A stretch of 61,919 nt of DNA from Calothrix anomala FACHB-343 (lineage in GTDB: Bacteria; Cyanobacteriota; Cyanobacteriia; Cyanobacteriales; Nostocaceae). The notes under the pieces were generated by a model. The model saw only the letters and a program-made list of their open reading frames with translations. It was not told the origin of the DNA and did no database searches. Shown here one piece after another: positions 19,003 through 40,888 of the stretch. Positions within the stretch are counted from its first letter, which is position 1. The number at the start of each line of letters is the position of its first letter. The stretch is taken from assembly GCF_014696435.1 (NCBI RefSeq), contig NZ_JACJQG010000058.1, forward strand, positions 1-61,919, read 5' to 3'. The translations under genes and the position numbers were made by a program.

Positions 19003-19029
19003 AATTTTGGGAAGGTAATTGCTGGTTGT

Positions 19030-20821: not shown

Positions 20822-21298
20822 AATCAGTCAGTTCATGAATCACTCAGAGGGCTATACTGTTTCATCTATATCGATACATAAATTTACGAGTCATATTAAC
20901 ACGTAATACTGAAAAAAATTTTGTAACAAAAGTGTTAAACAAAAAGTACTTTTTGCAACATGATTTTTTGTCACAAAGCTCCGAAGTAGTTTGGACAGGT
21001 AGGTATTTATTTAATGGTTTTAGCTAAGAATGCAGGCTTAAAGTACATCCATAGAAAAACCTATAGGAATTTATGCTAATTTCCGACTTTACTCCTTGAA
21101 AAATAGAAATATTTAACCCACAATCTTAATTTACAACCGTAAAATTACCCAATTAAGACAATATCTTTTCTCTGACTTTTCTCTTATTGAATGTAATAAT
21201 TTTTATTATTCTCTGTATTTTCACTCCCTCGGTTTTGTGACTAAAGTCTATTACCCTGAAAAAATAGGGTTTTTAGTCAATGCCCCATGCCCGATATC
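20822..21298. other. 477-bp intergenic region between ATPase and eCIS structural operon
   Basis: AT-rich and without a credible gene. It should contain the promoter of the structural operon (minus strand). A weak stem (accct/agggt at 21253-21270, followed by TTTTT on the plus strand) lies near the end of the ATPase gene. I cannot assign a confident -35/-10 pair. Confidence 0.5.
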
Positions 21299-23788: not shown

Positions 23789-25930
23789 TTAGATATTGAT
23801 ACTTTGAGGAATCTTAGAAGGTAGCAAATACTCATAAGCTAATAATCTTTCGCTACTTTGATTACGTTGCCGAATTTGTTGCTCAATATCTTTGAGTTCC
23901 TTCTGGAAATTGTTCAAAGCATCTTGTACTCGTGGCGAAGAGTGAAAATCAGAGTTAGTGTAATCGCCTAACTTCGTGTAGTAAACAGAGCCAAGTAAAT
24001 ACAGTAAATTAATCTGGTCTGTAGCTCTATCTAGTGGTGGTAAACCATCTATAAAATTTTCTTGCTGATTGGGATCTGTTGGTGCAGGAATATAACGTGC
24101 TAAAGGAAATGCTGGCGGATAGAGCATTAAACCACGTTGGGCAAAGTTAACAGCAGCATGTTGAGCGCTAGCAGTAAAAATAACTGTTGAAACAGCCTCA
24201 ATTAAATAATTGAGCGTCTTAATTCTACCTTGAGCATCCTCACCGAAATTCTTGAGGCGGCCTCCTGTTGGAGAAACTAATTGCGAAGCCCATTTCTGTA
24301 AATCTTGATCGTTCTCAACGGAAGAATCTGTACTGTAGTAAGAGCTTAAATAACCCTTCACCCAATTATGGATAGCATTCCAAATCAGCATTCCGTCATC
24401 TCTGTAAGGATAAATAGGTAGTTGACTCGGATCGTTAACACCTCGATGTTCTAGAGTCTTGGGAAATGCAACTTCATTAAAGTTCAATAGGCAAATCTGC
24501 GCTCCTTTGACAGCTAGCTGGTGATCAGAGTTAATATTACTAGCTAGCAACTTATCTACAGAACCCTTTGGTGCTACTAAAGATTGATGAGCGCCATAAT
24601 TGATTAATACCGTACCTTCTAGATGCGGTTTCAACAGTTTTCTGAGATTGTGATCCTTAGGCAAATGATTAGTTGCAACGACAAAAGGCTCAATAAATAA
24701 GTGAGTTTGGCCTAAGTGGCTATAAACCTCATGGTAGTTGCTATCTGCCATTTGTAAAATGCTCTTAGCACTCATCCAGGTTCCTGTATGTAGTGGTGTA
24801 AATACAGCCTGTTGAATCTTGATTGCAACTGGTATCAAAGAGCGAGAGGAACTACCAACCGGTGGAACTGCAAATAGTCCTAAGGGAGCATAAATATATT
24901 TTTGGTCTCTGGGGAAATTCCCATTTGCCATACCCTCTAATAGAGAATAGTCTGCTAAGTAAATTCGGCCTTCTTGCAGCGCTACATCTAGAGAATCGGC
25001 TTTACCAATGATTTTAGCGGTAATTTGTTGGTATTGTTCGCCAGTGATGGGCAAACGTGGATCTGCTGTTTTGATTTGCTTGAGCATGACTGGATTTGGC
25101 CCAGCCACCTGCATATAGGCAAAAACTATATCCTGTTGGAATTTTGCAGAAATCTCTGGTTTGGTTATCAGTCGAAATAGGTTATCGTAATCCTCAAGGG
25201 TATGTGAATAATTATCTCCCACAGAACCAAAGTTAACATTTGCCGCATCTTCAGCATTCTCAGTAGCTTGCATATCAGCAAGTTCTAATAACTGAGCGTT
25301 ATATCTGATGATATTTTTCAGATTAGCGATCGCAATTTGTTCGCTAGAATCCAAATCGAAGGAAATATTATCTGGATTCTCTTCTAAATGTTCAGCAATC
25401 TGAGCATCAATTTTTTGGAACTCGTCTTCAAATGAAAATTGAGTATTACTATCTGTTGCGTTAGCATCATTGTGACTGCGATACTCATCAATTTGTTCAT
25501 TAATTGAGAGATGCTCGTTAACTTCTTTGAGAGTTGATACTAGCTGAAAAGCAATATCATTGACATTTTCTGTCGTTTTAACTTCGTTTATCTGCTGCTC
25601 AATTGTTTCTAAAGAATTAAGTTTATCGCTTAAAAAGATGCTATCGCTGTCTACATCATCTGTACTAAACGAGACATTACCACCACTAGCTTTAGAAGTG
25701 TTATTGATATTATAAACACTTATTGCCTTTAATACTAAAAGTAGCCACTCCCGGCTAGGAAGCTCATCTTTTGGCAATCTAGGTAAATTGATTAATGGCA
25801 TTTTCGGCACATCTGTCATCGCCAAAGGGTTTAGATAGTTGTAGTTGTATTCATATCTATCACCTTGAGTCAAGATATAACGATCTACAAGCTTATACAA
25901 AAGTAAAAGCAAATCTTGTTGATTCAGCAT
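23789..25930 (-). CDS. Lipoxygenase (non-heme iron dioxygenase)
   Basis: 713 residues. The lipoxygenase histidine cluster H-x4-H-x4-H-x16-H-x8-H lies at His400, 405, 410, 427 and 436 (text NYHEVYSHLGQTHLFIEPF). By homology the iron ligands are His405, His410, His591 and Asn595 (QHAAVNF) and the C-terminal Ile713; all are present. Ala447, eleven residues after His436, falls at the Coffa position, where Ala usually goes with S-stereospecificity, though cyanobacterial exceptions exist. There is no PLAT domain. Instead residues about 75-225 are acidic and low-complexity. The enzyme would oxygenate polyunsaturated fatty acids to hydroperoxides. It stands alone on the minus strand between the injection system and the protease/CHAT set. 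Confidence 0.93.
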   Translation of the reverse strand: MLNQQDLLLLLYKLVDRYILTQGDRYEYNYNYLNPLAMTDVPKMPLINLPRLPKDELPSREWLLLVLKAISVYNINNTSKASGGNVSFSTDDVDSDSIFLSDKLNSLETIEQQINEVKTTENVNDIAFQLVSTLKEVNEHLSINEQIDEYRSHNDANATDSNTQFSFEDEFQKIDAQIAEHLEENPDNISFDLDSSEQIAIANLKNIIRYNAQLLELADMQATENAEDAANVNFGSVGDNYSHTLEDYDNLFRLITKPEISAKFQQDIVFAYMQVAGPNPVMLKQIKTADPRLPITGEQYQQITAKIIGKADSLDVALQEGRIYLADYSLLEGMANGNFPRDQKYIYAPLGLFAVPPVGSSSRSLIPVAIKIQQAVFTPLHTGTWMSAKSILQMADSNYHEVYSHLGQTHLFIEPFVVATNHLPKDHNLRKLLKPHLEGTVLINYGAHQSLVAPKGSVDKLLASNINSDHQLAVKGAQICLLNFNEVAFPKTLEHRGVNDPSQLPIYPYRDDGMLIWNAIHNWVKGYLSSYYSTDSSVENDQDLQKWASQLVSPTGGRLKNFGEDAQGRIKTLNYLIEAVSTVIFTASAQHAAVNFAQRGLMLYPPAFPLARYIPAPTDPNQQENFIDGLPPLDRATDQINLLYLLGSVYYTKLGDYTNSDFHSSPRVQDALNNFQKELKDIEQQIRQRNQSSERLLAYEYLLPSKIPQSINI

Positions 25931-26595
25931 ATTTTTCTCCTTTAGCTATCAATTGTCATGGATGGTTGAGCATTGAGCAGAATTAATTTTGACAAGGATA
26001 GAAGTAATTAATTAAGACTAAGTATGCAGATGTAAATAAATATAATATGCTGTGTTCCCAGCATATAGTTTTTCCTCAAGGAGACGCTACACGTAGTGTC
26101 TTGTAGAGAGTAACCTACTTCTTACCTGAGAGAAATTGTTCGCGTAGCACGATAGCAGAAGAGTAGCAATCCCAGCTTTTACAATTGCCTTGTTGTTTCT
26201 CCATCCTGCCGGAATTCAGCTACTTTATGACGACTTATATTTAATTATGTCTACTTACTTAGAGGGTGCAATTATTTTTTAACCTTGTCACACGAAAACG
26301 CATTAACTGTACTTTTATATACTCAATGCGGCTGGGGTTTGATGTTATTTAATTATGTCTTAAGAATAACATTGTGTACAGAATATATTATAAAAATAAT
26401 TAATAATAACGAAATATTGCAATATATCATCCAAGCGCTGTATTGACAAAATGTACTCAATTTGTGTTTAACGCAAAAATCTGATTTTATCGTTGATTTT
26501 ATTTTTTAGAAGTAAAATTTTTAGAAGTAAAATGTCAATAAGCTAACTTTATTGAGACTAAAGGCGGTTTTTGAGATTAATACATTCTTATCATT
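25931..26595. other. AT-rich divergent intergenic region
   Basis: About 665 bp without a gene between the lipoxygenase (minus) and hydrolase (plus) starts. It contains a short direct repeat (ttttagaagtaaaa twice, about 26504-26532) and a palindromic tract near 26096 (gacgctacacgtagtgtc). Promoters for both genes should lie here. Confidence 0.5.
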
Positions 26596-26633
26596 GCCGT
26601 ATTTTTTGTATAAAAACATACAAAAAATACGGC
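26596..26633. promoter_or_regulatory. Perfect 16-bp inverted repeat upstream of the hydrolase/protease genes
   Basis: gccgtattttttgtat and its exact complement flank a 6-base spacer (arms 26596-26611 and 26618-26633). It lies about 100 bp before the hydrolase ATG and 40 bp before a candidate -35 box. It could be an operator for a dimeric regulator, a bidirectional terminator, or a small mobile palindrome. Confidence 0.6.
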
Positions 26634-26673
26634 ATTTTGTAGATTATTTTTCTCTTTCCGGATTTAAGAAAAG

Positions 26674-26736: not shown

Positions 26737-28104
26737 ATGGCGCTTGAAAAAGTACGTGGTACTTCTTTGGAATACTATCTAATTTCTTTTGATGAGAAAG
26801 GCCACGAACGTCCAGAAAATGGCAAGTTAACTAGTCAACAAGTCTTAGATGTTTTAACTAGTCAGCCGATTACAGATGTTTTCTTGATGAGTCATGGATG
26901 GCAAGGAGACATTCCGGCTGCCAAAGACCAATACCAACGCTGGATTGCAGCTATGGCAGATAACCAAGCTGACATTCAAAAAATGCAACAGCTACAACCT
27001 GGGTTTAGTCCATTACTTATTGGGTTGCATTGGCCAAGTAAGCCTTGGGGAAATGAAAACTTAAACGCTCAAATTCCCTCTTTTGACACAGCAGACTCTC
27101 AATTGAATGATTTGATTGATGATTATGCTCGTCAAGTTTCAGACACAGAAGCTAGTAGAGAAGCACTCAGAACAATTTTTAGTGCGGCTATTGAATATGA
27201 CACGCCACCAGAAAACTTACCACCAGAAGTTGCCGCAGCTTATCAGGTATTGCTTGTGGAAGCATCCTCATACAATCAAAGTGAAGATACTTCCGAATGG
27301 AACGACACCGAACCCTTAAATTTTGATCCGGAAACTGTATATCAAGCCAGCTTAGAAGAAAATACCGAAGAAATCAGCTTTGGCATAGGCGATTCCATCG
27401 CATCAGCTTGGGATAAGTTTTTGAATGTACCCAGATTGTTATCTTTCTGGAAAATGAAAGACCTGGCGCGTAAAATTGGTCAAACTAGTGGCTTTAACTT
27501 ATTGACCAAACTACAACAAGTCGCAGACGATCGCGTCCGATTCCACCTCATGGGTCATAGCTTTGGGACTATTTTTGTATCGGCAACAGTTGCAGGTACA
27601 AAAGATAATAATAGACTTGTGCGCCCAGTGAATTCTCTAGCCTTAATTCAGGGAGCTGTATCGCTTTGGTCTTATACTGGCAAGGTTCCCTACAGACAAA
27701 ATCTGGCTGGTTATTTTCACCCCATCATTAGCGATCGCAAAGTGTCCGGGCCAATTATCACAACTCAATCTCGCTATGACAATGCCGTCAGGGTAGCTTA
27801 TCCTGTAGCTGGAACAATGGGATTAGGAATCGGCCAAGATATCCATTTTGATGTCTCTAAACCAAGTTATCCAGGTGTCGGTGGCATAGGTTTCTATGGA
27901 ATTCAAGGGGAAGATTTAGATATTACGGATATCGATATGCTCAACCCCAACAAATCCTATGATTTTAAACCAGGTAAAATTTACAACTTAGAAAGCAGCA
28001 ATTATATTACTGTTCCCAATCCCGATCCTTTTGTCGGCGCACACAACGCGATTGATAATCCTGCTGTCGCTCATGCTGTTTGGTCTGCTGCCCTCGTTAA
28101 TTAG
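26737..28104 (+). CDS. Alpha/beta-hydrolase-fold protein
   Basis: 455 residues. The N-terminal strand TDVFLMSHGWQGD gives an HGW oxyanion-type loop. The nucleophile elbow is GHSFG with Ser275 (FHLMGHSFGTIF). A Thr/Ser/Asp/Glu-rich insertion lies at about 125-225. Candidate catalytic His and Asp residues occur in the C-terminal half (VGAHNAIDNPAVAHAVW at the end). There is no signal peptide, so it is probably cytosolic. It resembles large alpha/beta hydrolases seen next to caspase-like and CHAT genes in filamentous cyanobacteria. The substrate is unknown; lipase or esterase is possible. The protease gene follows after 98 bp, likely in the same transcript. Confidence 0.75.
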   Translation: MALEKVRGTSLEYYLISFDEKGHERPENGKLTSQQVLDVLTSQPITDVFLMSHGWQGDIPAAKDQYQRWIAAMADNQADIQKMQQLQPGFSPLLIGLHWPSKPWGNENLNAQIPSFDTADSQLNDLIDDYARQVSDTEASREALRTIFSAAIEYDTPPENLPPEVAAAYQVLLVEASSYNQSEDTSEWNDTEPLNFDPETVYQASLEENTEEISFGIGDSIASAWDKFLNVPRLLSFWKMKDLARKIGQTSGFNLLTKLQQVADDRVRFHLMGHSFGTIFVSATVAGTKDNNRLVRPVNSLALIQGAVSLWSYTGKVPYRQNLAGYFHPIISDRKVSGPIITTQSRYDNAVRVAYPVAGTMGLGIGQDIHFDVSKPSYPGVGGIGFYGIQGEDLDITDIDMLNPNKSYDFKPGKIYNLESSNYITVPNPDPFVGAHNAIDNPAVAHAVWSAALVN

Positions 28105-28202
28105 CAGTTACAAGTTCTTAGCATCATTCTCAATCACCGTAGGGTAAGCACTGCCCTCTTAATACAAGACATATCTGGCACAAACATCAGGAGACAAAGA
28201 GC

Positions 28203-29903
28203 ATGAGTGTAGAACAGCTTACAGAAGAACTATATTTCAATGGCATTGATGGCGCTTCCGGAGGTTATTTGTTACCTCCTTTAACGCCGGAACAAGTTGC
28301 GAGAATTGCTCAAGGCGAAGACTTCGACCCAATAGAAATTAGCGAACTCAAGAAAAAGGATCTCCATGTCAAAGGTCTAGAACCAGACTTTGCCCCGATA
28401 GAAGGAGTAGATCCGAAAAATTTGGCTGAAACAGGTTGGGGAGTTATTTTTGCCTATAATGCCGATCCCGCTATTAAAGAAGCGCTCAAGGAACTGCTAG
28501 AGCATCGCCAAAGACAAGCAACCAAAAATTACGACCATTATTATCAGGAATATACTGGCCCTAGAGGTTATCGTCCTGGTGAGTCAAAGAATGCATTTTT
28601 AGCGCGTCATGGAGTTGGGCCTGGCCCAGCAGATCCAGAAAAAATGCCTTATTATCTGCTGATTGTTGGCGATCCAGAAACAATTCCCTATCGCTTTCAG
28701 TACCAACTTGATGTGCAGTATGCAGTTGGTCGGATTTACTTTGATACCCCCGAAGAGTATGCCCAATATGCTCGCAGCGTTGTACAAGCTGAAAGTCCAG
28801 GGTTTTCACTTCCTCGGCGGGCTAGCTTCTTTGGTGTCCAAACCAGTGGTGATGCAGCTACACAATTAAGTGCGAAGAACTTAATTCAACCTCTTGCTGA
28901 ATGGATGGTTGGAGAGCAAAAAGATTGGAAAGTCGAAACTATCCTGGCACAAGAAGCCACCAAAGCCAGACTCAAGAAACTCTTAGGCGGTGAAGACACA
29001 CCTGCATTGTTATTCACTGGTAGTCATGGTATGGGTTTTCCCAATGGGGATGAACGACAATTACGCCATCAAGGTGCCCTACTGTGCCAAGACTGGCCAG
29101 GCCCTATACAATGGCGCGGTAAGCCGATACCAGAAGACTTTTACTTTTCAGCAGATGATGTTGGCGCTGATGCGCGGTTGTTAGGCTTAATTGCGTTTCA
29201 CTTTGCTTGTTACGGTGCGGGTACGCCCAAACTAGATGAATTTGCCCATCAAAAAGGCTCTAATGAAAGAGCCACTATTGCTCCCCATGCATTTATTGCA
29301 CCTTTACCGCGACGGTTACTTAGCCATCCCAACGGCGGAGCCTTAGCTGTAATTGGTCATGTGGAAAGAGCTTGGGGTTGTTCGTTTGTTTGGGAGAAAA
29401 CAGGTAAGCAGTTAGCAGTATTTGAAAGTACTTTAAAGCGGCTGTTAGAGGGTCATCCTGTAGGGTCTGCGGTTGAGTATTTCAATGAACGGTATGCCGA
29501 GCTGTCTTCTGATTTGAGTACTGAACTCGAAGAAATCAAATTTGGCGCGACAGCCAATCCAGTCAGCTTGGCAGGAATGTGGACAGCAAACAACGATGCT
29601 CGTAGTTATGCCATTGTCGGCGATCCTGCAGTGCGGTTGGTAGTGAGCGATCGCCAAAATGCTTCAGAGCGACAAACCATAGAGTCAGTGAAATTACCTG
29701 CTGCAATTGCTGCACCAAATACCTCTACCTCTAATGGCACTGGTGATACATCAGCAATTAAAAAGGCGCAGACAGATTTAAATCAAGCCCTAGAACAGTT
29801 TATTCAAAATGTCGATCAAGCTTCTGCAACTCGCACAGAAAAGCTTGAGGCGGCGATTTCTGGAGTGATGAGTTTATTAGAGGCGTTGAAAAAGCTGAAA
29901 TAA
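28203..29903 (+). CDS. Caspase-fold cysteine protease (C25-like)
   Basis: 566 residues. The catalytic dyad fits clan CD: His275 in [11 protein letters not shown] and Cys336 in [12 protein letters not shown], each after a hydrophobic strand. A later [15 protein letters not shown] block is typical of C25/CHAT-like families. The first 180 residues precede the protease domain and contain [22 protein letters not shown]-terminal helix (about 515-566) may be a docking segment. A good RBS (AGGAGA at 28190-28195) precedes the ATG. No signal peptide is seen, unlike secreted gingipains. Such enzymes usually need activation, and the CHAT-STAND genes next door are plausible partners. Confidence 0.82.
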
Positions 29904-29909
29904 CCATAG

Positions 29910-29943
29910 GTGCGTAGTAGCAAAAGCTACTACGCACTTTCTT
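29910..29943 (+). terminator. Rho-independent-like terminator after the protease gene
   Basis: A perfect 12-bp stem gtgcgtagtagc/gctactacgcac with an AAAA loop, followed by TTTCTT, starts 7 bases after the stop codon. It implies that the hydrolase-protease pair and the CHAT-STAND genes can be separate transcripts. Confidence 0.75.
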
Positions 29944-30050
29944 GATAATCAGGTACGCGGGTAGGGGCAGCAGAACAGTGCCCTTACCAAAAATCTGCTG
30001 TACATCGTATATAACTCGTCGTAGACAGGGTCTTTATTAGCTAAAAAATT

Positions 30051-33000
30051 ATGAAAACATTCGAGATAAACATCCAGCGCAAATCAGCAAATCACTGGCC
30101 GATTGTTGTAGAACATAGTCGCCCTGGTGAACTGCTCTCATCGCGTTCGGAAGGAATTCTCGAACTAACATCAGCAGACTTAGAAAAACTCACCAGCTTA
30201 TTGGGACAGCCCAAAGACTACGGTACATTTTTAGGGAAAGCACTATTTAAAGAAGAAATTAGAGATGCTTTTGTCAGCGCCTTGCGGGACTCAGACACCA
30301 TAGTCAGGGTATTGTTATTTATTGAAGCTGAAGACAAAGAAATCAGAACCCTGCGTTGGGAAAGACTCTGCGCCAACATCGATGACGGATGGCATTTATT
30401 AAGCCTAGAACAGCGCACACCATATTCACTTTATATCCCTGCGATTACAGACCGTCGATTTCCCCCCATTGGCAGGAGAGATTTACGCGCCTTAATCTTA
30501 GTAGCCAGTCCACAGGAAATAGAAAGGTATAAATTAGACTCATTTGATGTAGAAGCAGCAGTTTCAGGTGTGCGGCAAGCATTAGGTAAAATCCCCTGTG
30601 ATGTCTTAGCTACAGTCGAAGGTGCAATTGGCAAACCGACTATTGATGAGTTGTGTAAACACTTAACAGATAGAACAAAGCAGTATACTTTGCTGCACTT
30701 CGTCAGTCATAGTCGCGTGATTCAGGATAGCGGCGAAACAGTTCTCTACTGGGCAACATCAGAGAATAAAGTAGACCCAGTTACAGGAACGCGCTTAATT
30801 GAGAGATTGCGATCGCTCTCAGCCAGTAAGGGGCTACCACATTTGACCTTTCTTTCGACTTGCGAAAGTGCTAGCCCAGAAGCAGAAGCGGCATTGGGGG
30901 GTTTAGGGCAAAGATTAGTCCGGGATTTGGGAATGCCGGCAGTGATTGCGATGACGGAGAAAGTCACTGTTAAAACAGCTTTGGCATTAGGGGCAAAATT
31001 TTATGAGCAGTTGGGTAAATCTGGGGAAGTAGATTTAGCACTGCAAGAAGCAGCCGCATCTCTAGCAGAACGGCAAGATATTACTGTCCCTGCTTTGTTT
31101 AGCCGCTTGGGTGGGCGACCTTTATTTAGCGACCAACTGGACAGAGAACTCACTAACGCCGAAATTCAGCATGGTTTAGAGCAATTTGAGAAGTTATTGT
31201 TAGAACGCGCCCCTGCACTCCGCCAGAGATTCTCAGAGCAAGCCCAGAAACTATACACCTGTTTAGGGACAGAGATTACAGCCTTAAGCAAACAAGCCCG
31301 TTATGAACGAGAGCTAGCATTAGCAGAGATAAATACTCTCTGTGAGGAAATAGTAGACCTCAGTTTTAACGCCCTAGCTTTAGGACAAGAACCACCTGCT
31401 TATGATGCTCGTTGTCCCTTCCTGGGTTTGTATCCTTTCCGCGAGTCCAACCGCGAATTTTTCTTTGGGCGAGAAAAATTAATTGCTCAATTGCAACAAA
31501 AGCTGAGAGAGCATAACTTCTTAGCTGTGTTAGGTGCTTCTGGGAGTGGGAAATCATCAGTGGTGTTAGCTGGGCTAATTCCGGCGCTACAGGAGAAAGA
31601 ACCTAATTTAGTGGTGTCATATATGACACCGAATAATAATCCACTCGCACAACTACAAGCTACTCTTGCTGGGGTAGAAAAAGAAATACATTCCATTGTG
31701 GATAGCGAATGGGCACCAAAGCCAGAACTCGTCACTAACTCAGCAGGTAGTTATTTACCTTTAACCAGAGAGTGGAATGTCGCCGCAACTATTAACAAAA
31801 CGCCTATTTTAGTAATTGACCAGTTTGAGGAAGTATTTACTCTTTGCGCTGATGAAAACGAACGTCTAGCCTTTATTGAGCAAGTTTTAAACTTAACCCA
31901 GCAACAGAAAGTTGTGATTACCATGCGGGCAGACTTTTGGGGTGAATGCGCTCCCTACCGCGAATTAAAAGAATTGATGGAAGCGCGACAAAAGTTAATT
32001 GGGCCAATGGACAATGCTGAGTTGCGAAAAGCGATGGAAATGCAAGCCGCCAAAGTGGGTTTACGCTTTGAAGCCGGATTAAGTAACTCAATTTTGGATG
32101 AAGTAAAAGACGAACCAGGGGCAATGCCATTATTGCAACATGCGCTGCTAGAGTTGTGGAAGCGACGACATGGTAGATGGTTGCAAGCCAAGGAATATGA
32201 AGCTATTGGTGGTGTGAAAATGGCGATCGCGCAAACTGCCGATGATGTTTACAATACATTATCACCCCCAGAACAAGAGCAAGTTAAAAATATTTTCATT
32301 CGTTTAACCCGCTTAGATGACAGCGCCCTCCAGGGAGAGAAACGCAGAGATACACGCCGACGAGTTTGGTTAGATGAATTAGTACCTGCGGGTGGAACAG
32401 TTGCACTAATTAAGGAATTAGTCAATAGGTTAGCAGGAGAAGGTGCTAGATTGGTAGTTACCAGCGTAGACGGCTCGACAAAGCGAGAAGAAGTAGAAGT
32501 AGCCCATGAAGCTTTAATTCGCTACTGGCCGAGGTTGCTCAATTGGTTAGATGAAAATCGGACGAATTTGCAGCTACGAGAAACCATCCGTCAGGCGGCT
32601 TTGGATTGGGAAAAGCAGGAAAAAGATGATAATTATTTAGTGCATCGTGGTGGGAGATTAGATGACGCTTATGCCTTAGCCAAGCAAGCTGGTTTTCTCA
32701 ACCAACTTGAGGCTAATTACATAACTACTTGTGTAGAATTGCGCCTGCGTCAAGAACAAGAAAAAGAAGCGCATCGCCGTCGAGAAATTAGAACAGCTTG
32801 GGGAGTTGCGATCGGAGCAGTTTTTGCGGTGATTGTTAGTGGTACTTTTGGAGTAGTAGCTTGGTATCAAAAGCAAACAGCAGAAGCACAAAAACACGAA
32901 GCGGAAACACAAAAGCAAAGAGCTGAAATAACTAAAGCTGAGGCCATCAGCCAATCTTCTTTAGCACTCTTTGATTCTCACCAAGAGTTGGATGCACTTA

Positions 33001-34940
33001 GAGAAGGAATTCAGGCTGGAAAAATACTGAAAGATCTCAAAATCCCCCAGTCCCTAACCCACTCCCTAGCTATAGGCGCTTTGCAGAAAGCAGTTTATGG
33101 AGTGAATGAACAAAATAATCTTGAGCATGAGGATTTAGTCAATAGTGTAGACTATAGCCCCGATGGTAAAACCATTGCTACTTTGAGTAATGATAGTACT
33201 GTGAAACTTTGGGATTCAAAGGGCAAACTACTGCAAGTTTTCAAACATGATCATGAGGTTAACAGCGTAGCCTTCAGTCCTGACGGTAAAACTATTGCTA
33301 GTGCTAGTAATGACAAAACTGTAAAACTCTGGGATTTTAACGGCAAGCTTATTCAAACCTACCCTCATCAACAAGTTGTCACCAGTGTAGCCTTTCGTCC
33401 TTGTGGTAAAAGTATAGCTACTGCAAATAGCGATGGTACCATCAACCTTTGGAATTCAAAAGGCAAGCTCATCCAAACTTTTAAAGCACATGACAAAGAG
33501 GTCAAAAGCATAGTCTTTAGTCCAACTGATGACACCATTGCTACTGCTAGTAATGAAAAAACCGTGAAACTTTGGGATTTAAGCGGTAAACTCATCCAAA
33601 CCTTCAAACACGATGATGAGGTTAAAAGCGTAGCTTTCAGTCCCGACGGTCAAACTATTGCTACTGCTAGTAATGACAAAACAGTGAAACTTTGGGATTT
33701 AAACGGCAAGCTCATCCAAACCTTCAAACATGATGATATAGTCAACAGCGTGGTATTTAGTCCCGACGGTCAAACCATCGCTTCTGGTAGTAGTGACAGT
33801 ACAGTAAAACTTTGGGATATCAAAAGCAAAGCACCAAAACCACTACAAACTTTTCAAGGACATCAAAATTTAGTCACAAGCGTGGTATTTAGTCCAGATG
33901 GTCAAACTATTGCTTCTGCTAGTTGGGATAAAACAGTGAGACTTTGGCATGTCAAAAGCCCACAACCGCAAACCTTGAAACATCAACAAAATATCAACAG
34001 TGTGGTATTCAGTCCCAATGGTAAAACCATTGCTACTGCTAGTAAGGACAAAACCGTGAAACTTTGGGATTTAAACGGCAAGCCACTAAAAACTTTTCCC
34101 GATCAAGATGAAGTCAACAGCGTAGTCTTTAGCCCAGACGGTCAAAACATCGCTACTGTCAACAATGATTACAGTATAAAAGTTTGGAATTTAAGCAGCA
34201 GTCAAGAATTGCCAATCTTTAAAAAACAAGAGAACTTGTTCGATAGCATGATCTTTAGCCCAGAAGGTCAAACCATCGCTACTGTTAGTGGTAATATTTT
34301 GAAACTTTGGGATTTAAAAGGCAATCAACTACCAAATTTTATAGAACATGAAAATGCCATCAAAAGTGTGGTCTTTAGTCCTGACGGTCAAACCATTGCT
34401 TTTGCTAGTCAAGACAAAAATGTGACACTTTGGGATTTTAAAAAGAATAAACAGCGAACCATCAAAACAGACCAGCAAAAGGTCACAATCGTGGTATTTA
34501 GCCCAGATGGTAAAACTATCGCTACTGCAAGCCCTGAAAGTAAAGGTACCGTCAAACTGTGGGATGTAATCAGCAGCAAACAAGTGAGGAAATTTCAACA
34601 TCAGGAAGGTGTAAAAGGCGTAGCCTTTAGTCCAGACGGCCAAACTATCGCTACAGCAGGTTATGGCGATATCAAGTCTAAACACAGTAGCTTGAAACTT
34701 TGGGATTTGAACGGCAAGTTACTGCAAACATGGAAATATGATGCTGTTATCAATAATGTAGTATTTAGTCCTGACGGCAAAACCATTGCTTTTGCTAGTG
34801 AAAATACCGTGATTTTATGGGATTGGAATCTAGATTCTTTGATGGTGAGTGCTTGCAATTGGGCGCGAGATTATCTTCACAATAGCGCGGAGGTAGAAGA
34901 GAGCGATAGGCATATATGCGATGATATTGGCAAAAATTAA
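30051..34940 (+). CDS. CHAT protease - STAND NTPase - TM - WD40 (14 repeats) protein
   Basis: 1629 residues. A CHAT domain (about 135-365) has dyad His220 (LLHFVSHSR) and Cys271 (LTFLSTCESA). An nSTAND1-type NTPase follows: CPFLGLYPFRESN lead-in, FFFGRE, Walker A GASGSGKSS (about 494-502), Walker B ILVIDQFEE (about 586), and the downstream GPMDNAELRKAMEMQA and GAMPLLQHALLELWKRRHG blocks. A hydrophobic helix lies at about 918-939. Fourteen WD40 repeats follow, counted by xLWD/xLWN motifs from about residue 1025, enough for two 7-blade propellers. The C-terminal tail ends ACNWARDYLH ... SDRHICDDIG. STAND proteins switch on when the sensor binds a ligand; here the output would be proteolysis. 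The stimulus and substrate are unknown. Confidence 0.93.
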   Translation: MKTFEINIQRKSANHWPIVVEHSRPGELLSSRSEGILELTSADLEKLTSLLGQPKDYGTFLGKALFKEEIRDAFVSALRDSDTIVRVLLFIEAEDKEIRTLRWERLCANIDDGWHLLSLEQRTPYSLYIPAITDRRFPPIGRRDLRALILVASPQEIERYKLDSFDVEAAVSGVRQALGKIPCDVLATVEGAIGKPTIDELCKHLTDRTKQYTLLHFVSHSRVIQDSGETVLYWATSENKVDPVTGTRLIERLRSLSASKGLPHLTFLSTCESASPEAEAALGGLGQRLVRDLGMPAVIAMTEKVTVKTALALGAKFYEQLGKSGEVDLALQEAAASLAERQDITVPALFSRLGGRPLFSDQLDRELTNAEIQHGLEQFEKLLLERAPALRQRFSEQAQKLYTCLGTEITALSKQARYERELALAEINTLCEEIVDLSFNALALGQEPPAYDARCPFLGLYPFRESNREFFFGREKLIAQLQQKLREHNFLAVLGASGSGKSSVVLAGLIPALQEKEPNLVVSYMTPNNNPLAQLQATLAGVEKEIHSIVDSEWAPKPELVTNSAGSYLPLTREWNVAATINKTPILVIDQFEEVFTLCADENERLAFIEQVLNLTQQQKVVITMRADFWGECAPYRELKELMEARQKLIGPMDNAELRKAMEMQAAKVGLRFEAGLSNSILDEVKDEPGAMPLLQHALLELWKRRHGRWLQAKEYEAIGGVKMAIAQTADDVYNTLSPPEQEQVKNIFIRLTRLDDSALQGEKRRDTRRRVWLDELVPAGGTVALIKELVNRLAGEGARLVVTSVDGSTKREEVEVAHEALIRYWPRLLNWLDENRTNLQLRETIRQAALDWEKQEKDDNYLVHRGGRLDDAYALAKQAGFLNQLEANYITTCVELRLRQEQEKEAHRRREIRTAWGVAIGAVFAVIVSGTFGVVAWYQKQTAEAQKHEAETQKQRAEITKAEAISQSSLALFDSHQELDALREGIQAGKILKDLKIPQSLTHSLAIGALQKAVYGVNEQNNLEHEDLVNSVDYSPDGKTIATLSNDSTVKLWDSKGKLLQVFKHDHEVNSVAFSPDGKTIASASNDKTVKLWDFNGKLIQTYPHQQVVTSVAFRPCGKSIATANSDGTINLWNSKGKLIQTFKAHDKEVKSIVFSPTDDTIATASNEKTVKLWDLSGKLIQTFKHDDEVKSVAFSPDGQTIATASNDKTVKLWDLNGKLIQTFKHDDIVNSVVFSPDGQTIASGSSDSTVKLWDIKSKAPKPLQTFQGHQNLVTSVVFSPDGQTIASASWDKTVRLWHVKSPQPQTLKHQQNINSVVFSPNGKTIATASKDKTVKLWDLNGKPLKTFPDQDEVNSVVFSPDGQNIATVNNDYSIKVWNLSSSQELPIFKKQENLFDSMIFSPEGQTIATVSGNILKLWDLKGNQLPNFIEHENAIKSVVFSPDGQTIAFASQDKNVTLWDFKKNKQRTIKTDQQKVTIVVFSPDGKTIATASPESKGTVKLWDVISSKQVRKFQHQEGVKGVAFSPDGQTIATAGYGDIKSKHSSLKLWDLNGKLLQTWKYDAVINNVVFSPDGKTIAFASENTVILWDWNLDSLMVSACNWARDYLHNSAEVEESDRHICDDIGKN

Positions 34941-34963
34941 TAATTTTCATCATATATGCACTT

Positions 34964-36053
34964 ATGAACACATTCGAGATAAACATCCAGCGCAAATCAG
35001 CAAATCACTGGCCGATTGTTGTAGAACATAGTCGCCCTGGTGAACTGCTCTCATCGCGTTCGGAAGGAATTCTCGAACTCACATCTACTGATTTTCAGCA
35101 ACTAACTAGTTTATTAGGACAGCCCAAAGACTACGGTACATTTTTAGGGAAAGCACTATTTAAAGAAGAAATCAGAGACGCTTTTGTCAGCGCTTTGCGG
35201 GATTCCGATGCCATAGTCAGGGTATTGTTATTTATTGAAGCTGAAGACAAAGAAATCAGAACCCTGCGTTGGGAAAGACTCTGCGCCAACATCGATGACG
35301 GATGGCATTTATTAAGCCTAGAACAGCGCACACCATATTCACTTTATATCCCCGCGATTACAGACCGTCGATTTCCCCCCATTGGTAGGAGAGATTTACG
35401 CGCCTTAATCTTAGTAGCTAGCCCACAGGAAATAGAACGGTATAAATTAGACTCATTTGATGTAGAAGCCGCAGTCTCAGGTGTGCGGCAAGCATTAGGT
35501 AAAATCCCCTGTGATGTCTTAGCTACAGTCGAAGGTGCAATTGGCAAACCGACTATTGATGAGTTGTGTAAATACTTAACAGATAGAACAAAGCAGTATA
35601 CTTTGCTGCACTTCGTCAGTCATAGTCGCGTGATTCAGGATAGCGGCGAAACAGTTCTCTACTGGGCAACATCAGAGAATAAAGTAGACCCAGTTACAGG
35701 AACGCGCTTAATTGAGAGATTGCGATCGCTCTCAGCCAGTAAGGGGCTACCACATTTGACCTTTCTTTCGACTTGCGAAAGTGCTAGCCCAGAAGCAGAA
35801 GCGGCATTGGGGGGTTTAGGACAAAGATTAGTCCGGGATTTGGGAATGCCGGCGGTGATTGCGATGACGGAGAAAGTCACAGTCAAAACCGCTTTGGTAT
35901 TGGGGGCAAAATTTTACGAGCAGTTGAGTAAATCAGGGGAAGTAGATTTAGCACTGCAAGAAGCAGCCGCATCCTTAGCAGAGCGGCAAGATATTACTGT
36001 CCCTGCTCTGTTTAGCCGCTTGGGTGGGCGACCTTTGTTTAGCGACCAACTTG
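34964..36053 (+). repeat. Near-identical duplication of the CHAT-coding segment (other copy 30051-31140)
   Basis: The first about 1.09 kb of the two CHAT genes differ at only about 10 amino acids in 363. Similarity then falls abruptly in the linker (after LFSDQLDR) and is patchy in the NTPase and WD40 regions. This pattern indicates recent duplication or gene conversion limited to the effector domain. Confidence 0.9.
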
Positions 36054-39000
36054 ACCGCAAATTAACTAACAGCGAAATTAAATATGGTTTAGAGCAGTTG
36101 CAAGTATTGTTTCAAGAGCGATCGCCTATACTGTTACCAAAGCTGGAAGTCCGAGTCGAAAAGTTGACAAATCTGCTGCATATAGATTTAGCAGCTTTGA
36201 GCAAAGAAGCCCGAAAAGAGCGAGAACAGGCACTAGAAGATGTAAACAATCTCTCTATTGCTGTGCTTGATATCAGTTTTAACGCCGTCGCCTTGGGTCA
36301 GGAACCACCAATTTACGATGCTCGCTGTCCTTTTTTGGGCTTATATCCCTTCCGCGTCGAAAATCAGAAATTTTTCTTTGGTAGAGAAAAATTAGTTGCA
36401 CAATTACAACAAAAGCTAGAAAAAGACAATTTTTTAGCTGTGTTTGGGGCTTCTGGTAGTGGTAAATCATCCTTGGTACTAGCAGGGCTAATTCCAGCGC
36501 TGAAGGAAAAACAGTCGGATTTGCAAATGGCATACATGACACCCAACTGTAACCCCATTGAGCAAATGCAAGCCAGTTTCTTAGAGGTGCAAAATCAAGC
36601 TGCAATTTTAGTGATCGACCAATTTGAAGAACTGTTCACCCTCTGTACTGACAATCAGCGCCGACAAGAATTTATCGATAAATTGCTGTTTACTATCCAG
36701 CAGCAAAAAGTTGTGGTTACCATGCGAGCAGACTTTTGGGGTGAATGTGCGTCCTATCCCCAACTGAAGCAGTTAATGCAATCGCGCCAAGAATTGATCG
36801 GCCCAATGGATACTGCCGAACTACGGAAGGCGATGGAAATGCAAGCTGCGCAAGTAGGGTTACGCTTTGAAGCCGACTTGAGTAATCAGATTTTGGATGA
36901 TGTGCAAGGTGAACCAGGGGCGATGCCATTATTGCAACATGCACTGCTAGAGTTGTGGAAACGGCGACATGGCAGATGGTTAAGGACAATGGAGTATGAA
37001 GCCATTGGTGGTGTGAAAATAGCGATCGCGCAAACTGCTGATGCTGTTTACGATCAATGTGAACCACAACAAAAAGAACAAATCAAGAATATCTTTATTC
37101 GCTTAACTCGCTTAGATGATTCAGCCCCAACCGGAGAGAAACGCCGCGACACCCGCCGCCGAGTTTGGTTAGAAGAATTAATTCCTACTGTGAATGATGA
37201 GGCGCTGATTCAACAGCTGGTTAAGAAACTAGCAGGTGAAGGCGCTCGCCTCGTAGTTACTAGTGTAGATTCAGCCACACAACGAGAAGAGGTAGAAGTC
37301 GCCCATGAAGCCTTAATTCGTTACTGGCCGAGGTTGCTAAATTGGTTAGATGAAAACCGTTCTCTACTGCTACTGCGCGAAAAGATTCGTCAAGAAGCTT
37401 TAGAATGGGAAAACAATCAAAAAGAAGAAAGCTATTTAGTACATCGCGGGGAACGCTTAAAAAACGCCCAAGAATTACTTAAATCCAATTTTTTCAACGT
37501 CTTAGAAACTAATTATGTCCAAAGTTGCCTAGAATTGCGCGATCGCCAACAGCAAGAACAAGAAGCCCGTCGTCGTCGCGACATTCAAATTAAATGGACA
37601 ATCTTCACAGGAGCAGTTGCGATCTTCTTGACTACTAGTTTAGGGCTAATAGCTGTGAAGAAAGGGTATGAAGCTGAATTAAGTAAAGCCGATTCTCTGC
37701 GTCAAAGTTCCTTGTCATTGTCTAGATCTGCCAAAGATTTAGAAGCACTCACCAATGCAATTAAGTCGGCAAAAATTATCCAAGATACGAAATTTTTGTC
37801 AAAAGTTAGCAGCTTAATTATTAAAAATCAAGACCAAATTAACTCTTTGGCTCAGGTAATTGCAGTGTTACAGCGAGCTATAGATGGAGTAAAAGCACGC
37901 AATTACTTAAATGGACATAGTTCTACGCCTACAACAGTGGTCTTTAGCCCCAATGGTAAAATGATTGCCACAGTTAGTAAAGATAAAACTCTCAAACTTT
38001 GGGATTTGCAAGGTCAAGAATTAACAAAATCTCGGCTCAAATATTATGTAGGGGTAACTCAGGTAGCCTTCAGCCCTGATAGCCAAACTCTAGCCACAGT
38101 TATTCACAACAAAACCGTTCAACTTTGGGATTTACAAGCCAATCATCAGTTAGGAACTCTGCTCAAACATGATGCAGCCGTTACAAGTTTAGCATTCAGC
38201 CCCGATGGTAATACTCTTGCTACAGCAAGTTTGGATCGTAGGGTGATTCTCTGGAATTTACAAGGCTATGAACTACCAACACGCTTCCATCAAGAGGATG
38301 CGGCAATTACAAGTTTAGTCTTCAGTCCCGATGGTAAGACTATTGCCACAGCAACAAAGAATCACACAGTCAAATTTTGGGATTTACAGGGTAAGGAACT
38401 GGCAAAAACCTCCTTTGCAGATAAATCTGGAGAAACTAATTTAGTCTTCAGTCCCGATCGCCAAACTATTGCTACTGTAACAAAAGATAATACCATTTTG
38501 CTTTGGGATTTACAGGATAAAGAACTGACAAAAGCCTTAGCAACTAATCAATTCACTATTCAAGAGTCGCAGATTCAAGATAATATTTTTACAATTAAAA
38601 ATATCAACCCAAATCAACAGCAAAAACAACCCTTCAAGCATAAGTCAAAAATCACCACTCTAGCTTTTAGTGCCGACTGTCAAACTATCGCCACAGGTAG
38701 TGAAGATAATAGCGTCATCCTTTGGGATTTAAATGGTAATCAACTGCAAACTTTTAAAGGACATGAGGGTGATATCACCAGCCTAGCCTTTAGTCCTGAC
38801 GGTAGTGGCCTCGTTTCTGCTAGTAAGGATAATAATATCATTCTCTGGAATTTAGGAGGCAAACTCCTACAAACCTGGACAGGACATCAAGCTGGAGTTA
38901 CCAGTATTGCTATTAGCCCTGACGGTAAAAATATTGCCTCTGCTAGTAAAGATAATACAGTCAAACTATGGAATTTAGGAGGTAAATTACTACGCACTTT

Positions 39001-40888
39001 TAACGAACATAAATCTGCTGTCACCAGTGTAGCTTTTAGTGCTGATGGTAATACAATTGCCTCTACTAGTGAAGATAAAACTGTAAAAATTTGGGATTTA
39101 AAAACTAATTCCCCATCCAACGTAACTATCCCCGGAGAACAAGCAGGATTTACTAGTGTAGTTTTTTCTCCCCATAATCTTTCACAAAAAACTAACTGTC
39201 AGTTCCTCGCTGCTGCAACTAAAGACAATCTCATTCAACTTTGGGATTTAAGGGAAAATAAGCCGCATATTTGGGATATAGGACAGAAGCAACCGCAAAT
39301 ATTGAGAGGACATAAATATGCAGTTACTAGTCTAGCTTTTAGTCCAGATTGTCAAACTTTAGCATCTGCAAGTGTTGACAAGAGTATCATTTTATGGAGT
39401 TTGAATGGTAAGCAACTGCAAACATTCAAAGGGCATGAGGCTGCTATTACCAGCATCGCCTTTAGCCCCGACAGTCAAAAATTGGCTTCTGGTAGTGACG
39501 ATAAAACTATTATTATCTGGGATTTAAAGGGCAATCAATTGCATAAATTTAAAGGTCATGAGGCTGGTATTACCAGTGTTGCCTTCAGTCCCCATAGTGA
39601 TAATCTAGCTTCTGCAAGTCTAGATCGTACTATCATCATTTGGGATTTAAATGGTAAGAAATTGCAAACTTTGAGAGGACATCAAGCTGCTGTCACTAGT
39701 GTTGCTTTTAGCAACGATGGTAAAACTATAGTATCAGCAAGTGAAGACAATACCATTAAACTTTGGAATTTAAAAGGTAAGCATATTCTCGAAGGACATC
39801 GGGATACTGTATATGCAGTTAAGTTTAGCCCGGATGGTAAAACTCTCGCATCAGCAAGTGAAGACAATACCATTAAACTTTGGAATTTACAGAGTAGAGA
39901 ACTAGCTACTATCAAAAATGGTGAGGCAGAAATTATAGATATAGTATTCAGCCATGATAGTAAAAATCTAGCTGCTGTGAATGAAAACAAAACCATCACA
40001 CTTTGGGATTTAAAAGGTAAGGAATTAGCTAATTTCAAAAGACATCAAGCAGAAATTACAACTATAATATTCAGTCATAACGATAAAATCCTCGCTTCTG
40101 GTAGTAAAGATAAGACCATCAAACTGTGGAATTTACAAGGTAAGGAACTAGCTACTTTCAAAGGACATCAAGCAGAAATTACAACTATAGTCTTCAGCCA
40201 TAACGATAAAATTCTCGCTTCTGGTAGTAAAGATAAGACCATCAAACTGTGGAATTTACAAGGTAAGAAACTAGCTACCTTCAAAGGACATCAAGCAGAA
40301 ATTACAACTATAGTCTTGAGTCCTAATGGTAAAATTATCGCTTCTGGTAGTAAAGATAAGACTATCAAACTGTGGAATTTACAAGGTAAGGAACTAGCTA
40401 CTTTCAAAGGACATCAAGCAGGAATTAAAGATATAGTTTTTAGCCAAGATAGCCAAAATCTGGTTTCTATGAGTGCAGACTGGGCAATAATTTTATGGGA
40501 TTTACAAGGGAAGCAACTCCACACCTTCAAAGTAAATGAGAATCAGTTGGCAAAAATAGTTGTCAGCCCAAATAGTAAAACTATTGCTTTTCTCAGCGAA
40601 GATAAGACAATTAAACTCTGGGATTTTCAGGGTAATCTTAAACGAACTTTGATAGGACACGAGGCTGGGATAAAAACTATGGCTTTTAGCCCCGATGGCG
40701 ATACCCTGGCTTCTGGTAGCGCTGACAATAACATAATTTTGTGGGATATTAATGATTTAGATATAGATGCACTTTTAGATGATTTGATAGTGACTGCTTG
40801 CAATTCGGTTAGAGATTATCTGCACTATAACCAACAGGTAGAAAAGAGCGATCGCAATATGTGTGATGATATGGGCACATCAAAGTAG
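34964..40888 (+). CDS. CHAT protease - STAND NTPase - TM - WD40 (22 repeats) protein, tandem paralogue
   Basis: 1974 residues, starting 23 bp after the previous gene. The CHAT dyad is at the same positions, His220 and Cys271. The NTPase follows with Walker A GASGSGKSS at about 495 and Walker B ILVIDQFEELF. It is shorter than its neighbour because a segment of about 35 residues between the Walker motifs is missing. A membrane helix lies at about 876-898. From about residue 980 there are 22 WD40 repeats, four of them (residues about 1685-1815) nearly identical. The tail repeats the ACNSVRDYLH ... SDRNMCDDMG ending of the neighbour. It probably senses a different ligand while sharing the same protease output. 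Confidence 0.93.
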   Translation: MNTFEINIQRKSANHWPIVVEHSRPGELLSSRSEGILELTSTDFQQLTSLLGQPKDYGTFLGKALFKEEIRDAFVSALRDSDAIVRVLLFIEAEDKEIRTLRWERLCANIDDGWHLLSLEQRTPYSLYIPAITDRRFPPIGRRDLRALILVASPQEIERYKLDSFDVEAAVSGVRQALGKIPCDVLATVEGAIGKPTIDELCKYLTDRTKQYTLLHFVSHSRVIQDSGETVLYWATSENKVDPVTGTRLIERLRSLSASKGLPHLTFLSTCESASPEAEAALGGLGQRLVRDLGMPAVIAMTEKVTVKTALVLGAKFYEQLSKSGEVDLALQEAAASLAERQDITVPALFSRLGGRPLFSDQLDRKLTNSEIKYGLEQLQVLFQERSPILLPKLEVRVEKLTNLLHIDLAALSKEARKEREQALEDVNNLSIAVLDISFNAVALGQEPPIYDARCPFLGLYPFRVENQKFFFGREKLVAQLQQKLEKDNFLAVFGASGSGKSSLVLAGLIPALKEKQSDLQMAYMTPNCNPIEQMQASFLEVQNQAAILVIDQFEELFTLCTDNQRRQEFIDKLLFTIQQQKVVVTMRADFWGECASYPQLKQLMQSRQELIGPMDTAELRKAMEMQAAQVGLRFEADLSNQILDDVQGEPGAMPLLQHALLELWKRRHGRWLRTMEYEAIGGVKIAIAQTADAVYDQCEPQQKEQIKNIFIRLTRLDDSAPTGEKRRDTRRRVWLEELIPTVNDEALIQQLVKKLAGEGARLVVTSVDSATQREEVEVAHEALIRYWPRLLNWLDENRSLLLLREKIRQEALEWENNQKEESYLVHRGERLKNAQELLKSNFFNVLETNYVQSCLELRDRQQQEQEARRRRDIQIKWTIFTGAVAIFLTTSLGLIAVKKGYEAELSKADSLRQSSLSLSRSAKDLEALTNAIKSAKIIQDTKFLSKVSSLIIKNQDQINSLAQVIAVLQRAIDGVKARNYLNGHSSTPTTVVFSPNGKMIATVSKDKTLKLWDLQGQELTKSRLKYYVGVTQVAFSPDSQTLATVIHNKTVQLWDLQANHQLGTLLKHDAAVTSLAFSPDGNTLATASLDRRVILWNLQGYELPTRFHQEDAAITSLVFSPDGKTIATATKNHTVKFWDLQGKELAKTSFADKSGETNLVFSPDRQTIATVTKDNTILLWDLQDKELTKALATNQFTIQESQIQDNIFTIKNINPNQQQKQPFKHKSKITTLAFSADCQTIATGSEDNSVILWDLNGNQLQTFKGHEGDITSLAFSPDGSGLVSASKDNNIILWNLGGKLLQTWTGHQAGVTSIAISPDGKNIASASKDNTVKLWNLGGKLLRTFNEHKSAVTSVAFSADGNTIASTSEDKTVKIWDLKTNSPSNVTIPGEQAGFTSVVFSPHNLSQKTNCQFLAAATKDNLIQLWDLRENKPHIWDIGQKQPQILRGHKYAVTSLAFSPDCQTLASASVDKSIILWSLNGKQLQTFKGHEAAITSIAFSPDSQKLASGSDDKTIIIWDLKGNQLHKFKGHEAGITSVAFSPHSDNLASASLDRTIIIWDLNGKKLQTLRGHQAAVTSVAFSNDGKTIVSASEDNTIKLWNLKGKHILEGHRDTVYAVKFSPDGKTLASASEDNTIKLWNLQSRELATIKNGEAEIIDIVFSHDSKNLAAVNENKTITLWDLKGKELANFKRHQAEITTIIFSHNDKILASGSKDKTIKLWNLQGKELATFKGHQAEITTIVFSHNDKILASGSKDKTIKLWNLQGKKLATFKGHQAEITTIVLSPNGKIIASGSKDKTIKLWNLQGKELATFKGHQAGIKDIVFSQDSQNLVSMSADWAIILWDLQGKQLHTFKVNENQLAKIVVSPNSKTIAFLSEDKTIKLWDFQGNLKRTLIGHEAGIKTMAFSPDGDTLASGSADNNIILWDINDLDIDALLDDLIVTACNSVRDYLHYNQQVEKSDRNMCDDMGTSK
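40025..40420 (+). repeat. Recently amplified 123-bp WD40 repeats
   Basis: ctagct marks at 40148, 40271 and 40394 are exactly 123 bp (41 residues) apart. The intervening DNA is almost unchanged, encoding TIKLWNLQGKELATFKGHQ-type blades. Most other blades of the protein are much more diverged, so this is a local expansion. Confidence 0.9.

Follow-up and report, generated by a model that had tools for sequence, protein, structure and literature searches.

The window analyzed in this study, a stretch of 61,919 nucleotides from Calothrix anomala FACHB-343 (contig NZ_JACJQG010000058.1), contains four genes on the plus strand that form a real and recurrent module, encoding a lipase-like α/β hydrolase, a predicted C25-type caspase-fold cysteine protease, and two giant switch proteins composed of CHAT, nSTAND1, and WD40 domains. 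All four open reading frames (ORFs) were confirmed between positions 26737 and 40888, the interval for which an initial annotation, made from the sequence alone, had suggested a conflict or cell-death system. We propose that the genes encode one system in which a membrane lipase is set free by a caspase-like protease under the control of a STAND switch and in which a lipoxygenase, where present, oxidizes the freed fatty acids; we judge the chances of this reading to be about even. The boundaries of the annotated interval left out the lipoxygenase gene (23789..25930, minus strand), which lies near the hydrolase gene in relatives too. This overlooked gene alters what the output of the system is likely to be.

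The hydrolase (26737..28104, plus strand, 455 amino acids) gave no Pfam match, and a sequence search of the PDB yielded nothing beyond chance. Its predicted fold is that of an α/β hydrolase, in agreement with its earlier description as lipase-like, and the fold search retrieved α/β hydrolases, with a weak result from Foldseek alone. The nucleophile elbow of the GxSxG type, G273-H-S275-F-G277, was unchanged in 31 of 31 sequences and is flanked in the structure model by a strand (residues 268 to 274) and a subsequent helix (residues 276 to 286). Two loops of this model, residues 178 to 193 and 209 to 221, have low confidence and are candidate sites for cleavage by the proteases. Asp348 and His436 were invariant in the same 31 sequences and probably complete a catalytic triad with Ser275; the protein also has an N-terminal His53-Gly54. 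The C25 protein (28203..29903, plus strand, 566 amino acids) scored 29.6 bits against PF01364 (cutoff 23; E value 5.3e-7), with the alignment covering only profile positions 288 to 374. The dyad residues assigned to it previously, His275 and Cys336, were both invariant in the 21 aligned sequences. Its structure model was too poor for a fold search (predicted local distance difference test score, 52.5), and the PDB sequence search again gave nothing beyond chance. An origin of the module from phages was rejected: none of 50,697 phage records matched the hydrolase, and PHROGs contained nothing for the hydrolase or the C25 protein.

Both giants were correctly described as STAND switches with a CHAT output, since nSTAND1, WD40, and CHAT were all matched in both genes. 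The first (30051..34940, plus strand, 1,629 amino acids) and the second (34964..40888, plus strand, 1,974 amino acids) scored 60.0 and 59.7 bits against PF12770 (CHAT), above the cutoff. The nSTAND1 matches had E values of 1.3e-118 and 2.3e-111, with the motifs GASGSGKS and LVIDQFEE, and WD40 was among the best 25 Pfam families of either protein. The proposed CHAT dyad, His220 and Cys271, was found at these positions; counting alignment rows with letters there, the histidine is kept in 46 of 46 and the cysteine in 45 of 46. Residues 1 to 360 of the two giants are 95 to 99% identical, compared to 55% in the linker, 70 to 75% in the switch, and about 47% in the WD40 part, which is longer in the second giant. 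Because the remainder is only 46 to 75% identical, we interpret the pair as sharing an output domain whose uniformity is maintained through recent copying or gene conversion, in contrast to the diverging switch and sensor; the giants would thus represent two sensors with one output. The second giant contains an array of a 123-base WD40 repeat (39834 to 40446, 5.0 copies, 84% matches), a pattern that would suit a sensor with turnover of its repeats. The host genome has 93 CHAT matches, of which just two fall into the CHAT subfamily of the giants, both at this locus; the next-closest host CHAT proteins are 25 to 29% identical, the first of them with 25% identity and an E value of 5e-8.

The recurrence of the module was determined in 243 genomes of the order, using residues 1 to 360 of the first giant as the probe for the CHAT subfamily. 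The hydrolase was present in 11 genomes and C25 in 13. Both occurred together in 11, and the hydrolase was never found alone; the two genomes with C25 and no hydrolase were G110 and, with a fragment, G168. The CHAT subfamily was also found in 11 genomes, nine of them with the hydrolase. Its two other carriers were G110 and G156, where the match has two stop codons. The two genomes with the hydrolase and no CHAT subfamily were G055, in which a convergent WD40 gene is interrupted by the end of the contig, and G160, where a gene of the C14-caspase-STAND type is present. Fisher's test gave P values of 2e-17 for hydrolase and C25 and 4e-13 for hydrolase and CHAT subfamily, kinship among the 243 genomes not being corrected for. 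The hydrolase is rare, as only 6 of 386 genomes drawn across the phylum contain it. A CHAT gene lay within 8 kb of the hydrolase gene in 11 of 14 genomes compared to 1.11 expected (P = 1.3e-10, ignoring kinship and CHAT clustering).

A search with the hydrolase alignment across 84,980 species, each represented by one genome, resulted in 47 loci, of which 28 were assigned by record title to cyanobacteria and 19 to Acidobacteria, Verrucomicrobiota, Actinobacteria, an Isosphaeraceae metagenome-assembled genome (MAG), and a Rubrivivax MAG. Together with eight further loci and the window, and leaving out duplicates (L025, L026, L030, L033, L034) and two loci without hydrolase (L035, L036), a set of 56 loci was obtained, 37 of them cyanobacterial and 19 from other groups. 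C25 was detected in 45 of the 56, always on the same strand as the hydrolase gene and in 38 cases less than 1 kb away, and CHAT or STAND was found near the hydrolase in 44. The order hydrolase-C25-CHAT occurred in 23 of the 37 cyanobacterial loci, with a convergent CHAT gene in seven of these. Other orders were hydrolase-CHAT-C25 (L066), CHAT-hydrolase-C25 (L079, L082, L083), C25-CHAT-hydrolase (L073, L076, L077), and CHAT-C25-hydrolase (L078, L081, L087). On a quick hydrolase tree, in which some long branches are unsure, at least five changes of CHAT placement and seven of C25 state were counted. The neighborhood survey that the initial annotation had suggested as a check therefore showed co-occurrence of hydrolase, C25, and CHAT/STAND across phyla in permuted orders, and the maintenance of linkage despite rearrangement indicates function rather than plain inheritance of a block.

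Individual loci showed further variation. In a Bryobacterales MAG (L083, 10001-14173) hydrolase and C25 domains lie in a single ORF, which would be a natural fusion. In Scytonema sp. NIES-4073 (L061) a second short CHAT ORF (18690-19199) and a further STAND ORF (20286-21308) follow the module, suggesting serial duplication of the switch. A decaying module was seen in Nostoc sp. LEGE 06077 (L057, 8618-13216), where an intervening ORF divides the C25 gene into pieces and an N-terminal hydrolase piece lies about 1.3 kb upstream. In the window, the C25 and first CHAT genes are separated by a hairpin (29908..29939, plus strand; stem of 14 pairs, -23.3 kcal/mol, z score of -6.5), previously taken as a terminator at 29910 between two halves of the set. 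A stable hairpin does exist and is a possible terminator or attenuator; its T tail is weak, and it was absent from the output of a consensus terminator scan. The doubt that it raised about a single transcript does not hold in general, as the C25 and CHAT ORFs of Nostoc sp. MS1 overlap by 4 bases.

The caspase-fold domain is exchanged among loci while its pairing with the hydrolase stays, and the partners are mostly of one kind. Proteins of the C14-nSTAND1-WD40 type lie beside the hydrolase in L060, L065, L067, and L089. Pfam identified C14 in L067 and in the C14 gene of L059; in L060, L065, and L089 C14 was assigned from motifs in the sequence. CHAT was combined with HEAT repeats in L073 and L082, with a SIR2-like domain in L081, with SEFIR/TIR, NNH1, and a NACHT-type NTPase in L072, and with Trypco2 in an Arthrobacter locus (L069), where the fusion lies beside the hydrolase gene. 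In L074 a subtilase is encoded between C25 and hydrolase. Relatives of the hydrolase occurred in 26 plasmid records, seven of which were inspected for neighbors. CHAT neighbors were present in Nostoc sp. MS1, Planktothrix agardhii, Sinorhizobium terangae, and Gemmobacter, and in the first three the annotation names both C25 and CHAT. The R. leguminosarum copy has an S8 peptidase as neighbor, neither CHAT nor S8 is annotated in R. rhodochrous, and the Embleya record carries no annotation at the hydrolase site. On the conjugative plasmid of S. terangae (L137, 1-5251) genes for a UvrD helicase, a PD-(D/E)XK nuclease, and a WYL-domain protein adjoin the module, surroundings that resemble a defense island. 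Because of its patchy presence, its plasmid copies, and its swapped immune-type partners, the module looks like a conflict system. The conflict or cell-death role assumed earlier fits the C14 caspase, SEFIR/TIR NACHT-type NTPase, SIR2-like, and Trypco2 partners as well as published pairings of caspases with α/β hydrolases, but PADLOC gave only partial domain matches (HEAT-ARM_XIII, SAVED_CHAT, mad3, mad8) and no known antiphage system.

The lipoxygenase is the most interesting part of the system and also the least certain. The protein of the window (713 amino acids, encoded divergently from the hydrolase) is a candidate lipid-oxidizing output enzyme. It matched PF00305 with an E value of 2.3e-56 and arachidonate 15-lipoxygenase (PDB 8x8f) with 3.7e-102, in an alignment that reaches the C-terminal isoleucine. 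His405, His410, His591, and Asn595 were invariant in six copies beside the hydrolase; together with the C-terminal Ile713 we take them to be the iron ligands. A lipoxygenase gene was located less than 10 kb from the hydrolase gene in 14 of the 37 cyanobacterial loci, upstream and divergent in six, upstream and codirectional in four, and downstream and codirectional beyond the CHAT-STAND gene in four. The copy of Nostoc sp. S4 (L049) is incomplete at the sequence end; there, the CHAT-STAND and lipoxygenase genes flank a cytochrome P450 gene, all on one strand, and this P450 has bacterial-type P450s such as mycinamicin hydroxylase as nearest PDB matches. In a lipoxygenase tree, for which three hydrolase-linked sequences were too partial, ten copies beside the hydrolase (that of L062 in two ORFs) formed one clade with Shimodaira-Hasegawa approximate likelihood ratio support of 97, which also takes in a copy from a hydrolase genome, located on a contig of 5 kb. 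At 15 control lipoxygenase places, three of them on contigs shorter than 10 kb and one of those three in a hydrolase genome, we found no hydrolase, no C25, one CHAT, and one STAND. The intergenic region of the divergent lipoxygenase/hydrolase pair in the window contains a 17-pair hairpin with a T tail (26595-26634).

The linkage of the genes, their domain make-up, and the conserved residues were observed directly; from these we infer what each protein does, in which order the proteins are cleaved, what sets the system off, and how it ends. The WD40 part would sense the trigger, upon which the STAND part would assemble and the CHAT protease, or a C14 caspase in some relatives, would become active. 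CHAT would then activate the hydrolase, either directly or through the C25 protease, and the hydrolase would attack membrane glycerolipids, by which fatty acids would be freed and membranes damaged. In those cyanobacteria that carry it, the lipoxygenase, joined in one locus by the neighboring P450, may convert freed polyunsaturated fatty acids into hydroperoxides and oxylipins, and the outcome could be self-killing and/or an alarm to neighboring cells of the filament. The linkage proposed in the initial annotation is right, and the support for it exceeds what sequence alone could offer. The circuit of that annotation, from WD40 and STAND to CHAT and on to protease and/or hydrolase, is plausible, and its interpretation as a whole is partly supported. 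A more far-reaching version, which we offer tentatively and regard as doubtful, is an inflammasome-like relay from STAND sensor to CHAT or C14 and on to C25, with enzymatic lipid peroxidation by lipase and lipoxygenase, sometimes with P450, as executioner. In it, the lipase would be released by proteolysis and supply the lipoxygenase, so that a filament cell that is infected or damaged would die through oxidation of its own thylakoid lipids, and oxylipins would warn its neighbors.

Several observations weigh against the proposed system. The nearest folds of the hydrolase point to no particular substrate, as they include esterases, polyhydroxybutyrate depolymerase, and the NirD (DDHD) domain of Nir1/Nir2, and C25 could degrade rather than activate or could itself be the executioner. 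The locus profiles were grown on these same loci from the proteins of the window. C25 was not detected in 11 of the 56 loci, including all four from Microbacterium, and CHAT/STAND was not detected in 12, two of which (L045, L085) have enough room for such a gene; of the others, L028 has a contig that ends within a convergent WD40 ORF, L059 has its C14 gene instead, and L048, L056, L057, L062, L070, L074, L075, and L080 are short or cut on the possibly relevant side. The CHAT matches of L072, L084, L086, and L088 were weak (E values of 1e-6 to 1e-4), with Pfam confirming those of L072 and L088. In the plasmid-borne Nostoc sp. MS1 locus, a heme peroxidase of the PF03098 family, which we assume to include fatty-acid dioxygenases, is encoded upstream of the hydrolase. 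As a substitute for the lipoxygenase it is only suggestive: transposases surround the gene, 35 plasmid records including its own match it, and the PDB had no match. Lipoxygenase was not detected in 23 of the 37 cyanobacterial loci or in any of the 19 other loci, so that oxidation cannot be a universal output. The lipoxygenase of the window falls outside the syntenic clade and groups with two copies that have no adjoining hydrolase, and its place may therefore be accidental; if it is not, two or more separate recruitments of lipoxygenase must have occurred.

The last two points also favor an unlikely though serious alternative, in which the same linked module kills by proteolysis or simply by membrane lysis through the lipase alone, with lipoxygenase as an unrelated or optional neighbor. 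The short lipoxygenase pieces in L046 and L051 suggest that the gene can be lost, which agrees with this alternative. Against it stands that lipoxygenase, from at least two lineages, recurs near the hydrolase in three different arrangements, though the enzyme is present in only 72 of the 243 order genomes, and that a P450 joins lipoxygenase in one locus. Less probable still is a role in signaling rather than killing, with the protease switch governing signals made of oxylipins or free fatty acids while filaments develop or respond to wounding. Lipase, lipoxygenase, and P450 follow what we take to be the logic of plant oxylipin formation, and many cyanobacterial carriers belong to genera that, judged by name, are presumably filamentous; such a role is hard to reconcile with the presence in 11 of 243 genomes, the plasmid copies, and the exchanged immune-type partners, or with the failure to detect lipoxygenase outside cyanobacterial loci. 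We consider it very improbable that hydrolase and C25 belong to the contractile injection system encoded at 1-22645 on the minus strand, be it as cargo or as accessory proteins. This complete-looking locus ends 4.1 kb upstream of the hydrolase gene, with the lipoxygenase gene and a small ORF in between, and a thylakoid-anchored system has been linked to ghost cells in Anabaena (PMC8894136). BLASTP searches with its 14 ORFs against 15 + 47 loci matched nothing except one AAA ATPase (26 to 27% identity, seven ORFs), at a cutoff of 1e-3 that could miss diverged tail genes; tail genes not being recurrent beside the module by this search, the injection system was set aside as incidental. The probability that the genes are ordinary chance neighbors in a CHAT-rich genome is negligible: the many CHAT proteins of the host speak for it, and it was rejected on the survey statistics given above, the subfamily-specific co-occurrence, and the lipoxygenase control loci.

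The proposed system shares features with several known ones. In Avs and related STAND NTPase immune sensors, the STAND switch is preceded by an effector at the N terminus and followed by a sensor made of repeats at the C terminus; the module differs in having nSTAND1 with WD40 and CHAT, and PADLOC found no Avs match. In the plant oxylipin pathway a lipase is followed by a lipoxygenase and then by CYP74. The order of enzyme types is alike, including the P450 of L049, but the bacterial genes are clustered beside a caspase-STAND switch and the P450 is nearest to bacterial types. In the MoxR-vWA-VMAP ternary and GAP1-N1 conflict systems, a caspase-superfamily protease is likewise neighbored by an α/β-hydrolase gene; according to the report on them, the caspase domain of the MoxR-vWA-VMAP systems is always accompanied in this way, and systems with this pairing are enriched in multicellular bacteria (Kaur et al. 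2020, PMC7159879). The pairing as such is therefore already known, and Trypco2, found here fused to CHAT beside the Arthrobacter hydrolase, was defined in the same work. Unlike the VMAP systems, the module combines a CHAT-nSTAND1-WD40 switch with C25 as a separate protease and, in some loci, with a lipoxygenase; neither C25 nor CHAT, lipoxygenase, or gingipain appears as a word in the accessible part of PMC7159879, and VMAP, MoxR, and vWA were absent among the Pfam matches listed for the 23 ORFs of window positions 1-44888 (best 25 families for the giants).

In Death-like/TRADD-N systems, effectors include caspases and α/β hydrolases for membrane-lipid hydrolysis, and caspase fusions are linked to a STAND ATPase gene; these systems, in contrast to the module, are joined by adaptor domains, and the accessible text on them mentions neither lipase nor lipoxygenase nor C25 (PMC8195603). 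Canu resembles the module in that its hydrolytic effector is unlocked by the caspase-type protease with which it is paired (Tuck et al. 2025, PMC12799240). This effector is a gated nuclease, whereas that of the module is a lipase-like hydrolase, and no nuclease family was among the Pfam matches listed for the four genes (best 25 families for the giants). Craspase (gRAMP with TPR-CHAT; PMC9729208 and PMC10028731) is also reported to place a CHAT protease under target-sensing control; no CRISPR component was among the Pfam matches listed here, and the switch of the module is STAND-WD40. We did not find the combination of CHAT-STAND, C25, and lipoxygenase in the open-license PMC literature, although a subscription paper could hold it.

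The contractile injection locus of the window contains genes for Baseplate_J, gp25, PAAR, a base V hub, a CIS tube, two gp19 tubes, a sheath, Pvc16_N, and AAA proteins, and by gene content it resembles the thylakoid-anchored system of Anabaena (PMC8894136). Within this locus, a gene at 8245-8733 (minus strand) encodes a 162-amino-acid protein with a CBM5/12 carbohydrate-binding module, possibly a fiber or target-binding part.

In the module, caspase-fold proteases, STAND switches, and lipid-active enzymes are inherited together as a single unit. Should the proposed lipid arm prove correct, bacteria would possess an immune or death output based on enzyme-driven lipid peroxidation, and the relay, if true, would be a prokaryotic counterpart of caspase-driven death and of plant oxylipin immunity.

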